Origin: a virus
DNA length: 43,899 bases
Virus record (IMG/VR): IMGVR_UViG_3300032307_000122
Location: 1-43,899 of that record
Strand: one strand, 5' to 3'
Shown: positions 32,720 to 42,659 of the stretch, one piece after another
Layout: every line of letters begins with the position of its first letter
Position numbering within the stretch: the first letter of the stretch is position 1
Made by a program: the position numbers and the translations under genes
The notes under the pieces: generated by a model
Told to the model about the DNA's origin: nothing
Database searches by the model: none
The model's input: the letters and a program-made list of their open reading frames with translations, nothing else

Positions 32720-33355
32720 CTAGAAGGTTAAGACACTTTCTACAGCTGCAACTGAGACACCAAGGTTCTCAGCAATCTCTGCTGCAGTGAAACCGTTCGA
32801 CTGTAGGGTCTCAGCAACTTTAGTTTGCTTTGCGTCGAGGGCTTCAATCTTACCACCACTTGCGATAGGAGCTGCGCCCAGATCGCCTAGTAGTGCGTCA
32901 ACATCTGGCTTAGAGGTGCCAGCGGTCAACTCAATGGCGTAAAGCTTTACGTCATTGTAGCGCTTGTTCTGTGATGGCTTGGTGCCAGACAGGGTGATCT
33001 TGAAGGTTGAGCCAATCTCAAGCTTCTTCATACCCTTCTTTGCCATTTCATCCTTGGTCGCCTTTAGCTTCTGACCAAACAAGAAGACGCGTCTGCGTCC
33101 ATCATCATCTGGGTCAGATGGGTCGGCGTATGATGTCGATAGCGTTACTTCGATCTGAAGCTTTGGCTTACCGTCATCCCAGAACTCAAGTTTAGTTGGG
33201 TCCTCGTAGTTGCGAACCTGCACTGTGCGTAGGTCCACGATTGTACCAGTGTAGCCTTCGCCAACTTGTGTGTCCTTGAAGGACAACGATGGTACCGAAG
33301 CACCACTTAGTAGGTCATCTACGCCTGGTAGGTTATCTGCATTGTATTCTGCCAT
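32720..33355 (-). CDS. ssDNA-binding-like protein with C-terminal HTH
   Basis: A 211-residue protein. The central part (about 25-145) looks like an OB fold, with VGEGYTGTIVDLRTVQVRNY and KLQIEVTLSTSY. The C-terminus (about 185-211) has an HTH-like helix pair (GFTAAEIAENLGVSVAAVES). It sits between PrimPol and the Cas4-like nuclease, as expected for an ssDNA-binding replication protein. There is no typical acidic SSB tail. AAAGGA lies before the ATG. Confidence 0.65.
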   Translation of the reverse strand: MAEYNADNLPGVDDLLSGASVPSLSFKDTQVGEGYTGTIVDLRTVQVRNYEDPTKLEFWDDGKPKLQIEVTLSTSYADPSDPDDDGRRRVFLFGQKLKATKDEMAKKGMKKLEIGSTFKITLSGTKPSQNKRYNDVKLYAIELTAGTSKPDVDALLGDLGAAPIASGGKIEALDAKQTKVAETLQSNGFTAAEIAENLGVSVAAVESVLTF

Positions 33356-38322: not shown

Positions 38323-38393
38323 CTTAAGAATGACACCTACTACTTACTAATCTACAGTGTAGACGATTTGTAAGTAGTAGGTGTTCACTTAAG
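38323..38393. repeat. Extended 71-bp dyad
   Basis: A perfect 15-bp inverted repeat (ACACCTACTACTTAC at 38333-38347; complement at 38370-38384) is flanked by CTTAAG on both sides (38323-38328 and 38388-38393). The 22-nt centre holds the small palindrome TCTACAGTGTAGA (38351-38363). It lies in the only gap of the small-gene region without a reading frame and is A+T-rich. It may be an operator or replication origin. No T run suggests a terminator. Confidence 0.72.
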
Positions 38394-39554: not shown

Positions 39555-39911
39555 TTAGGCCTCCTCGTAGCGGATACGGTCTACCCCGTAATAACGGGCT
39601 AAGCCTAGTGCGATTTCATAAGACTTGGAATAACCGCCTCCATGAATAGCTAAATACCAGCGCCCGCTCCGATCTCTAAGCGAGTAGCCCATTAGCTTGG
39701 CAATTGCCCAAGTCAAGTGAGATTGTCTAACCTCGCCATTGTCGGCAGGGTAGAAGACGCTAACCCGTAAATAATCGGTTGCGCTTTTGCCGTAATCGGT
39801 AGTAATGGACACTAAGCCCTTACCGCTTGCGATGTCTTCGCGGACGCTCTCCAAGATCCAAAGAGCCCGCTCTTTATCTTCTTTCTTCTGTGTTGCTGTT
39901 TCTGTAGCCAA
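39555..39911 (-). CDS. First gene of the small early operon (118 aa)
   Basis: A 118-residue protein. TTG start at 39911 with GAGGGA upstream. The N-terminal third is helical and charged; the middle is beta-rich (SATDYLRVSVFYPADNGEVR), then WAIAKLMGYSLRDRSGRWYL and a C-terminal helix ending VDRIRYEEA. A CTAG-core hairpin (39925-39950) sits right before the ribosome binding site. The long leader back to 40156 may control it. No family recognised. Confidence 0.65.
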   Translation of the reverse strand: MATETATQKKEDKERALWILESVREDIASGKGLVSITTDYGKSATDYLRVSVFYPADNGEVRQSHLTWAIAKLMGYSLRDRSGRWYLAIHGGGYSKSYEIALGLARYYGVDRIRYEEA

Positions 39912-39924
39912 TTGTTCTATCCCT

Positions 39925-39950
39925 CTAGCTAGTTGATTGGATCTAGCTAG
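39925..39950. repeat. CTAG-core hairpin before a ribosome binding site
   Basis: CTAGCTAG at 39925-39932 and again at 39943-39950 (self-complementary) with a 10-nt loop. On the minus strand the stem ends right before AGAGGG, the ribosome binding site of the gene at 39911. Confidence 0.6.
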
Positions 39951-40168
39951 TAGCAGATTAGTTGATTAGTAGTAATAAAGTCAAATCTATTTTTAGGCGT
40001 GTTGCCCTGCTGTTATGCGGGGTATGGCTAGCGTTATCAAATCGTTATCTAATTGGATCGGTAATTATGGCTAGCCCAACCGCCCCTCACTCACTCAAAA
40101 TTCTTCACTAGCCCTGCCTCCAGTGTCTACTAGGTTGATACTGCTAGCCATACCAGCGGGGCATTATA
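39951..40168 (-). promoter_or_regulatory. Long structured leader of the small early operon
   Basis: No reading frame above about 30 codons was seen in this noncoding stretch on either strand. A TATAAT (40168-40163, minus) would start RNA near 40156, about 245 nt before the first gene. The leader contains a 20-nt inverted repeat (18/20 matching) at 40021-40040 and 40135-40154, and a third TATGGCTAGC at 40066-40075. It may be an RNA-based switch, an origin, or an operator array. Confidence 0.55.
40021..40154. repeat. GGTATGGCTAGC inverted repeat pair
   Basis: GGTATGGCTAGC starts at 40021 and its complement ends at 40154; arms of 20 nt match at 18 positions and are separated by 94 nt. One arm begins at the predicted RNA start, so a long-range stem could form in the leader RNA. 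Confidence 0.75.
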
Positions 40169-40214: not shown

Positions 40215-40281
40215 TGGTTTTACGATTTTGCCCTGCTGTGCGCCCCGTACACGCCATAGCGGTATCTTGGGCATAAGAATA

Positions 40282-40312
40282 CCCCGTCAGCACCATTGAG
40301 GCGCTGACGGGG
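40282..40312 (-). terminator. Hairpin terminator after the clamp gene
   Basis: A perfect 10-bp stem (CCCCGTCAGC at 40282-40291 with 40303-40312), 11-nt loop, followed on the minus strand by TATTCTTATG. It lies 18 nt after the stop of the clamp-like gene. The T-run is interrupted, so it may be partial. Confidence 0.7.
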
Positions 40313-40330
40313 CTTGTAGGGCTTGCTAGG

Positions 40331-40951
40331 CTATGCCTGTAGTTTCAGCATTGGTTGAATTAGCGCTCTAAAGTTGCCATTGGTAGCAATTAGCGGTGAC
40401 GGGCGGTTAGGATTCTGGCGCTCGCCGTGTTCAAAATTCCATTGCTCGATCTTATTGCCATCAGTGCCAACTACTTTACCTAACTTGGCTAGTAGCTCGA
40501 TCTTGAAGCTATGGACTTCAGCGGTCACGGCAGGCTTGTGGCTATCGAATAGGGTTTCAATGGCGGGGTAATTACCCGTCATCATCCTAATTGTAGTGCT
40601 GGCGTCTCCCGTTTTGACGGTTAGGTTGCCCTCGAATACATCAAAGGCAATCATTGGATCGTAGTGCTTAGCCACTTTGTAGCTAGTGATAAACTTGGCA
40701 ACACTGGCGTCAAGATAGATAACACCAGACGCGCCGTGATCGTATCCATAGGTGCCTTGTATCACGGCATAGCGATCAGTAGCAGTGGCAGTGATCTTAC
40801 CACTATCAAAGGCCACTCTAATTACTTGTAGCGCAGGGGTGTAGCCACTTCGTGCGCTCTCAGCGAATGCGATAAAGCTAGCAATGCTCTTAGCAGTGCT
40901 AATTGGCATTAGGTGCTGAGTAATGCCCTTGGTTTCGATTATTGTAGACAT
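40331..40951 (-). CDS. Short sliding-clamp (beta-clamp-like) protein
   Basis: A 206-residue protein. It has ATDRYAV (57-63), the motif of bacterial DNA polymerase III beta clamps, then VYLDASVAKFITSYK, a GNYPAIETLF motif like the clamp FPDY region, and a C-terminal ATNGNFRALIQPML matching the clamp end with the final beta strand. It is about half the length of a bacterial clamp (three domains, about 370 residues), so it may form a larger ring or act as a partial clamp. The start at 40951 has GAGAGGG upstream; the longer frame from 40966 does not. It would tether polymerase, probably that of the host. Confidence 0.8.
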   Translation of the reverse strand: MSTIIETKGITQHLMPISTAKSIASFIAFAESARSGYTPALQVIRVAFDSGKITATATDRYAVIQGTYGYDHGASGVIYLDASVAKFITSYKVAKHYDPMIAFDVFEGNLTVKTGDASTTIRMMTGNYPAIETLFDSHKPAVTAEVHSFKIELLAKLGKVVGTDGNKIEQWNFEHGERQNPNRPSPLIATNGNFRALIQPMLKLQA

Positions 40952-40969
40952 TTTATACCCTCTCATTTT

Positions 40970-40987
40970 GGCTAGCCTTTTGGCTAG
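40970..40987. repeat. Leader hairpin of the clamp gene
   Basis: GCTAGCC (40971-40977) and GGCTAGT (40981-40987 region) with a TTTT loop form a 6-bp stem just before GAGAGGG on the minus strand. It resembles the stem at 41985-42003. Confidence 0.55.
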
Positions 40988-40994
40988 TAGTAGT

Positions 40995-41024
40995 AGCTTA
41001 GTAGCTTAGTTGGTAGCGTGTCAA
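40995..41024 (-). promoter_or_regulatory. Promoter candidate of the clamp gene
   Basis: TTGACA (41024-41019, minus) with either TACTAA (15-nt spacer) or TAAGCT (18-nt spacer) downstream. The 31-nt repeat copy 2 ends 3 nt before TTGACA. Confidence 0.5.
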
Positions 41025-41026
41025 GT

Positions 41027-41057
41027 ATCGCATCACATTCCACTCATTCCCTTAGTT
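41027..41057. repeat. 31-nt early-promoter repeat, copy 2
   Basis: Matches 40184-40214 at 28 of 31 positions, same orientation, directly upstream of TTGACA for the clamp gene. A binding site for an activator or phage-specific sigma factor is likely. Confidence 0.8.
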
Positions 41058-41967: not shown

Positions 41968-42143
41968 TTGTTCCCTCTCAATCTGCTAGCCCCCTTGGCT
42001 AGCTATGTATAAATCTATTGCTTGCTGACCATGTTGTGGGGAACTTTTTCATTTCCATCCATTACTAGCCTCAAACCGCTATACATGCTATCCACACTGT
42101 GTCTACTATGCTGCTATACTGGAACCACCAACAAGGAGACATA
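41968..42143. promoter_or_regulatory. Divergent control region with hairpin and promoters
   Basis: Minus side: hairpin GCTAGCC/GGCTAGC (41985-42003, loop 5 nt) just before GAGAGGG, and a TATACA (42011-42006) as -10 candidate. Plus side: extended -10 TGCTATACT (42112-42120), then AAGGAG and the ATG at 42144. A CATTTCCATCCATTAC block near 42050 is a possible weak third relative of the 31-nt repeat. The HTH protein encoded at 42144 may act here. Confidence 0.55.
42112..42120 (+). promoter_or_regulatory. Extended -10 promoter of the HTH gene
   Basis: TGC followed by TATACT (42115-42120) is an extended -10. RNA would begin near 42127, giving a 17-nt leader with AAGGAG. Confidence 0.6.
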
Positions 42144-42659
42144 ATGGCTAGAATTTCAGATCACCCAGTGAGACTTGCAAGGCTTAGAGCATCTATGACG
42201 CAAGCAGATCTTGCTAAGCGTGCAGGCGTGCAGCGCTCTGCCATAACAGCGATAGAAGATGGCCGTACCAAGAAACCATCTGAAGCCGTATTGACAGTGC
42301 TAGCAAACGCCTCTGGTACCAGCATCGAAGAACTTCAGAACGTAATCAGAACTTGGCTAGATCAATCAGAAGCCCCTGATGTCAAACCTGCCGTAAAGAA
42401 CTTGATGGCGATCCCTCCATACGTACTAAACCAGTACTACCGCTCGTTCCAACAGTGGCGTAAAGAGATCGCACCCACACCAACCGCGCTGGCATCGCTA
42501 TTGAGGCTAAATGCAGCCGTGGTGTCACGCTATGAATCTGGAGACTATAAGCGCGGAATGCCTGAAGTACTCTCCTCAAAGCTCCTAAAGGCATTTGGGC
42601 CTTATGGATTAACCACCGAATACATACTAGAACTGGAGAAACTACCTGCCCATGAGTGA
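42144..42659 (+). CDS. Double-HTH (XRE-type) regulator
   Basis: A 171-residue protein. Two HTH domains: residues about 9-65 (LARLRASMTQADLAKRAGVQ, then SAITAIEDGRTKKPSE) and about 105-160 (FQQWRKEIAPTPTALASLLR, then AVVSRYESGDYKRGMPE). Proteins of this kind bind operators, often as dimers or by two half sites. The start at 42144 was chosen for AAGGAG. It faces the early operon, so it may repress or activate it. A lysogeny role is unlikely because no integrase is seen. Confidence 0.8.
   Translation: MARISDHPVRLARLRASMTQADLAKRAGVQRSAITAIEDGRTKKPSEAVLTVLANASGTSIEELQNVIRTWLDQSEAPDVKPAVKNLMAIPPYVLNQYYRSFQQWRKEIAPTPTALASLLRLNAAVVSRYESGDYKRGMPEVLSSKLLKAFGPYGLTTEYILELEKLPAHE

Follow-up and report, generated by a model that had tools for sequence, protein, structure and literature searches.

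The minus-strand leader in front of the ~10-kb replication operon of this actinophage is probably a DNA control region consisting of tandem promoters and an operator for the host regulator MtrA, rather than chiefly a long leader that functions as RNA. An upstream promoter (P1) would be driven through a 25-nt element specific to the phage group and covering its -35 region. A second promoter (P2), near the first gene, would give rise to an mRNA with a leader of ~37 nt and a small hairpin beside the Shine-Dalgarno sequence, and a near-ideal MtrA operator between P1 and P2 would couple the operon to host physiology. The operon would then have two inputs, P1 via the phage element and P2, which has the operator for host MtrA close by.

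The analysed window comprises the whole stretch of 43,899 bases and corresponds to an IMG/VR virus record. Because its terminase is closest to those of Arthrobacter phages (e.g. Jasmine, 43% identity) and it encodes a WhiB protein, a family that to our knowledge is confined to actinobacteria and their phages, we infer that the virus is an actinophage and, thus, that its hosts are actinobacteria. The leader is located between a sliding-clamp-like gene and the ~10 kb operon, whose products include the WhiB protein, an SNF2-type helicase, an exonuclease and a D5-type primase/helicase. The clamp-like gene (40331-40966, minus strand; phrog_947, E 7.8e-8) is a weak match to DNA polymerase sliding clamps and has its own intrinsic terminator (40281-40313, minus strand), which is made up of a stem of 14 pairs and a subsequent T-rich tail and ends the preceding cassette. 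Related loci likewise have inverted-repeat terminators upstream of the 25-nt element. The first gene of the replication operon (39555-39911, minus strand) starts with TTG and encodes a protein of 118 amino acids without known family. Used as queries against IMG/VR, the two proteins flanking the leader returned no relatives; the SNF2 helicase returned ten related contigs, several of which extend into the homologous region. In the alignment of the long leaders, several blocks are strongly conserved, the inverted repeat discussed below is not.

The 25-nt element of P1, GGGAATGAATGGAATGTGATGTGAT, is found at 40208-40184 on the minus strand and is followed after 15 nt by the -10 hexamer TATAAT (40168-40163), which the first-pass annotation had already recognized. 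In 9 related contigs of IMG/VR, early cassettes are preceded by exact or near-exact copies. Within the window, GGGAATGARTGGAATGTGATGYGMT has two matches against 0.00 expected, the second one ahead of the clamp gene (41027-41051, minus strand). A scan of IMG/VR with the 21-nt core identified nine other contigs, with a maximum of three or four copies per contig; the species genomes of bacteria and archaea (84,980) and the named phage records (50,697) gave no match. The cassettes behind these copies are short, with one gene or a few, and the element heads most early cassettes of the phage group. In most copies a -10-like hexamer of the type TNTARW (TATAAT, TATAGG, TTTAGA, TGTAGA) follows at the same 15 nt, whereas the clamp cassettes carry TTGACA-N18-TAAGCT just past the element. 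The element behaves as a group-specific promoter element over the -35 region. Its natural candidate reader may be the divergently encoded Xre-type HTH regulator (42147-42659, plus strand; HTH_31, E 1.7e-14), a protein present, with 80-98% identity, in seven motif-bearing contigs.

The putative second promoter, P2 (39984-39955, minus strand), consists of TTGACT (39984-39979), an 18-nt spacer and TAATCT (39960-39955). It is followed by a hairpin with arms CTAGCTAG and CTAGCTAG around a 10-nt loop (39950-39925, minus strand), which lies between the -10 hexamer and the Shine-Dalgarno sequence, directly before the latter. It comprises 8 bp (p=0.004 relative to dinucleotide shuffles), and 18 other leaders of the group have counterparts that differ in the sequence of the arms. 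In all 19, the best hairpin begins near the expected 5' end of the mRNA and ends shortly before the Shine-Dalgarno sequence, with several pair types at each position. For most single leaders p is below 0.05 against shuffles, and the combined p is ~1e-15, a value to be read with the non-independence of the leaders. The window itself provides two further examples on the minus strand: the clamp promoter with its 5' hairpin CTAGCC-AAAA-GGCTAG (40987-40972, within 40972-41024) and the next upstream operon with GCTAGCC-AAGGG-GGCTAGC (41985-42003, p=0.003). The arms compensate each other's changes, as in the clamp hairpin of the window (CTAGCC/GGCTAG), its counterpart at the same place in contig L003 (CCAGCA-ACAC-TGCTGG, arms CCAGCA/TGCTGG) and contig L010 (GTTAGTT/AACTAGC).

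In the long leaders, the hairpin is not near P1; it starts 5-8 nt past a second -10-like hexamer, at the distance also seen after the -10 hexamer of the single-promoter cassettes. Since the hairpin follows this second hexamer, a second promoter close to the gene suggests itself, and the simplest reading is that P2 starts an mRNA at ~39950 with a leader of ~37 nt. The architecture TTGAC(A/T)-N18-TA is also found in the clade of contig L006, where P2 reads TTGACT-N18-TAGAGT, and in the clamp promoters of the window, L003 and L016. These parallels speak for P2; L003 is without a good TTGAC -35 hexamer at P2 and a generic promoter scan does not list P2, and both points speak against it. The first-pass annotation had predicted an RNA of about 245 nt before the first gene; the comparison of leaders instead favors a start much closer to 39911, at the putative P2, although transcripts from P1, if made, would still include the long leader. 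Three parts of the present model had also gone unnoticed there, namely the 25-nt element (40208-40184), the promoter-like site at 39984-39955 and a tandem 11-bp repeat at 40032-40049.

This tandem repeat, CGTTATCAAATCGTTATC (40032-40049, plus strand), matches in its core a binding site of MtrA. It consists of two GTTATC half-sites with an 11-bp period, laid out as GTTATC-AAATC-GTTATC (40033-40049). An exact-text search of the literature located the 14-nt center of the box in the M. tuberculosis MtrA probe Rv2524c, and the match extends to 16 nt, that is, the core GTTATCAAATCGTTAT (40033-40048) is identical to the probe in 16 of 16 positions (PMC10609481). Of 294 measured fragments this probe is bound most tightly (KD 4.6e-8 M), and replacement of either half-site abolishes binding or nearly so (PMC10609481). 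MtrA sites of Streptomyces are likewise direct repeats, spaced by 5-6 bp (PMC5650626, PMC13189361). The identity with a measured site suggests that MtrA binds the box in the window, although another OmpR-family regulator with 11-bp repeats could be its reader.

Each of the seven complete long leaders in the comparison contains the repeat CGTTATCAAAYCGTTAT. In the L006 clade, the sister clade of the window, its strand is that of the leader; the window and L003 carry it on the other strand. The L006 clade has 10 nt between the box and TTGAC, a clear geometry for which activation of P2 would be the most likely effect of MtrA. The box of the window is inverted and lies 47 bp from the -35 hexamer of P2, outside the usual geometry, and the box of L003 also faces away from P2. 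Because of this inversion and distance, the sign of control in the window could be either activation or a roadblock to P1, the inverted box possibly acting by repression. A possible, degenerate second box (GTTGCC-N5-GTTATG; 40001-40017, plus strand), again with an 11-bp period, lies 16 bp from the -35 hexamer of P2 and is identical in L003; we list it as tentative.

The repeat is not confined to this phage group. Within IMG/VR, CGTTATCAAAYCGTTAT occurs in at least 119 stretches and a scrambled version with identical composition in 6; the 119 include many close relatives, and the matches listed represent 61 distinct contexts. Among these 61 contexts, 11 have TTGA(C/T) exactly 20 nt past the repeat (shuffle maximum 3 at any offset), TANNNT hexamers peak at offset 43, and TTG at offset 20 occurs 15 times in forward and once in reverse orientation. 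A Shine-Dalgarno sequence and gene start 60-120 nt away were found in 25 forward versus 4 reverse cases of 50 contexts among the matches listed. The 10-nt spacing of the L006 clade corresponds to one helical turn less and is also found in one or two other contexts. Phages of Gordonia, Mycobacterium abscessus and Tsukamurella have near-matches in their intergenic DNA. WhiB is encoded in 7 of the 23 box-bearing records scanned (five of the seven longer than 38 kb), versus 1 of 4 controls. We further note that CGTTATCAAAYCGTTAT stands at promoter-like positions in the IMG/VR loci L025-L141, in Gordonia phage Runhaar (55385-55410) and in Mycobacterium phage phiGD24-3 (48578-48599), and that in many unrelated phage contigs it often lies directly past a stop codon, ~90 nt before a small gene.

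A different picture emerges for bacterial chromosomes. Actinobacterial genomes seldom contain the perfect word (2 of 396), so that natural use of the exact word in the presumed hosts would be no more than putative, a point against the preferred reading. The pattern of repeat plus -35 box was not found in any of 198 actinobacterial genomes. The box was also considered as a widespread element of host genomes and discarded, as nearly all of the 71 exact 21-mers in genome contigs share one repeated context. These contigs (L143-L213) are mostly of Oscillospiraceae type and contain CGTTATCAAATCGTTATCAAA, the exact 21-mer, always with the same surroundings; the repeated sequence is probably a mobile element whose resemblance to the phage box is an unrelated coincidence, and one that could mislead a naive motif scan. 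We regard the chances as even that many unrelated actinophages place promoters of their own under the control of host MtrA by means of a near-ideal operator that is rare in the hosts, in the present case beside a phage-specific promoter ahead of the replication operon.

The first-pass annotation had left open whether the leader is a folded RNA switch, an origin or a set of operator sites. The last of these best fits the comparison, which points to an MtrA-type operator together with an upstream element specific to the phage group. The first would be a structured regulatory RNA in which arm 1, at the 5' end of the RNA, pairs with either arm 2 or a third copy, so that a switch between two folds controls expression of the operon. 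Its sequence features are indeed present in the window: the 20-nt inverted repeat (40021-40040 and 40135-40154) is complementary in 18 of 20 positions with the arms 94 nt apart, and the third copy of TATGGCTAGC is found as the word GCTAGCCATA at 40066-40075 (minus strand). When the leader is shuffled 300 times with its dinucleotides preserved, an 18/20 repeat never appears, and therefore the repeat exceeds chance in the genome of the window. Arm 1 (40135-40154) is near the predicted start of P1 and has two alternative partners. However, the repeat is found in the window phage only: six homologous leaders have neither an 18/20 inverted repeat nor a perfect one of 10 bp, and of the 20 pairs only 9 are kept in the aligned L003 and 4 in the L006 clade, as compared to 18 in the window. 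The covariation analysis that had been proposed as a check yields a consensus term (RNAalifold) of +0.68, approximately zero, the fold energy of the window leader is ordinary (z -1.33), and Rfam gives no match for the window at gathering score or for the region at E 5. The long stem is thus unsupported. The short hairpin at the Shine-Dalgarno sequence, which had not been named, is the sole structure with compensatory changes. The switch was dropped on the basis of the homologous leaders, and we consider it highly improbable. Arm 2 (40021-40040) overlaps the MtrA box. The palindrome GCTAGC was likewise rejected as a simple operator, as it is not enriched genome-wide (31 found, 29 expected), and the compensated changes of the short-leader arms fit hairpins better; all four copies of TGGCTAGC on the plus strand are confined to the early region (40025, 40068, 40969, 41996).

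The region might also be an origin of replication, with the 11-bp tandem repeats as initiator iterons and the conserved block plus nearby A+T-rich DNA as opening site. The non-coding DNA is conserved, with one long-leader type per genome, it adjoins the clamp-like gene and precedes the operon of the primase/helicase, direct repeats are present, and, according to a work cited as reference 26 in PMC10609481, the M. tuberculosis oriC is bound by MtrA. We nevertheless consider an origin quite unlikely: there are one or two repeats and no array of iterons, their orientation differs between sister clades, and among the matches listed in other phages the spacing of the same repeat to -35 boxes and to gene starts is constant, as is the case for promoter operators. 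Another explanation retains the two promoters but has the 11-bp repeat read by a phage-encoded or other host OmpR-type protein instead of MtrA. Sites of this family resemble each other, and a word common in phages but rare in actinobacterial chromosomes (2/396) is compatible with such a reader. The 16/16 identity to the strongest measured MtrA site speaks against it, as does the sharing of the box by phages with unrelated gene content, whose hosts must then have the reader of the box in common; the title of PMC5487470 describes MtrAB as conserved among actinobacteria. A reader other than MtrA therefore appears unlikely to us, and tandem promoters with an MtrA operator remain the preferred reading.

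MtrAB is a master regulator of actinobacteria tied to the control of cell division, replication and the envelope. If the preferred reading is true, it establishes a direct regulatory link between this system and a broad set of phages, including those of Gordonia and Mycobacterium, such that phage genes are tied to the cell-cycle and envelope control of the host. It would also be the second clear case, after the PHO boxes of cyanophages, of phages wired into a two-component system of the host. In the literature searched, which took in few subscription papers, MtrA sites were not reported for the promoters of phages. The cyanophage PHO boxes, through which the response regulator of the host PhoBR system controls phage genes, are the closest precedent, and predicted PHO boxes are not always bound (PMC10976474). 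Both cases share a site for a host OmpR-family regulator upstream of phage genes; the present one differs in the regulator (MtrA), the hosts (actinobacteria), the target (an early replication operon) and a site near the best known affinity, and it is a prediction from sequence. Compared to the MtrA sites of M. tuberculosis and Streptomyces, the box shares the two direct-repeat half-sites, the 5-bp spacing and a core identical to Rv2524c. It differs in being located in phage genomes, with the perfect repeat rare in host chromosomes, and, in the window, in being inverted relative to the nearest gene.

If the preferred reading is true, the 25-nt element and the 5' hairpin also define promoter parts for a group of uncultured actinophages; both have analogs. 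In the lambda promoter PRE, the phage activator cII has its site over the -35 region; similarly, the 25-nt element is conserved, overlaps the -35 region at a fixed spacing to the -10 hexamer and occurs at several early promoters, whereas it is non-palindromic and has no sequence match in named phages. The leader of ompA contains a 5' stem-loop that stabilizes a bacterial mRNA. The hairpins described here are likewise located at the extreme 5' end, just ahead of the ribosome site, but recur with different sequences at almost all early cassettes of the group, and are so far predictions from the genomes.

One conserved feature is left unexplained by the two-promoter model, a block TAGACAC...AATTTTGAG (40129-40094, minus strand) that is nearly invariant in the alignments of all long leaders. 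Outside the group, TAGACACYG...AATTTTGAGT has one extra match in an A+T-rich contig, which looks like coding sequence by eye and was judged to be due to chance. The block was also considered as a promoter, TAGACA-N18-AAGAAT (40129-40100), and rejected, as relatives do not preserve the second hexamer. A look-alike, TAGACAC...TTTGAG, is located upstream of the divergent HTH gene at ~42075-42110 of the window.

Further observations concern the genomes as such. Between small operon genes of the window, a 20-nt inverted repeat (38333-38384, 95% complementary, 12-nt spacer) is likely a terminator or mRNA structure. A protein of 211 amino acids (32720-33355) has a C-terminal end with weak similarity to HTH domains such as sigma-70 region 4; its best match (E 0.001) falls short of the cut-off. 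The loci L007 (1-400) and L023 (1-152) are the two ends of one 44,657-base contig and carry slightly different copies of the leader region, which suggests that the genome is circular or terminally redundant and that strains differ at this region.
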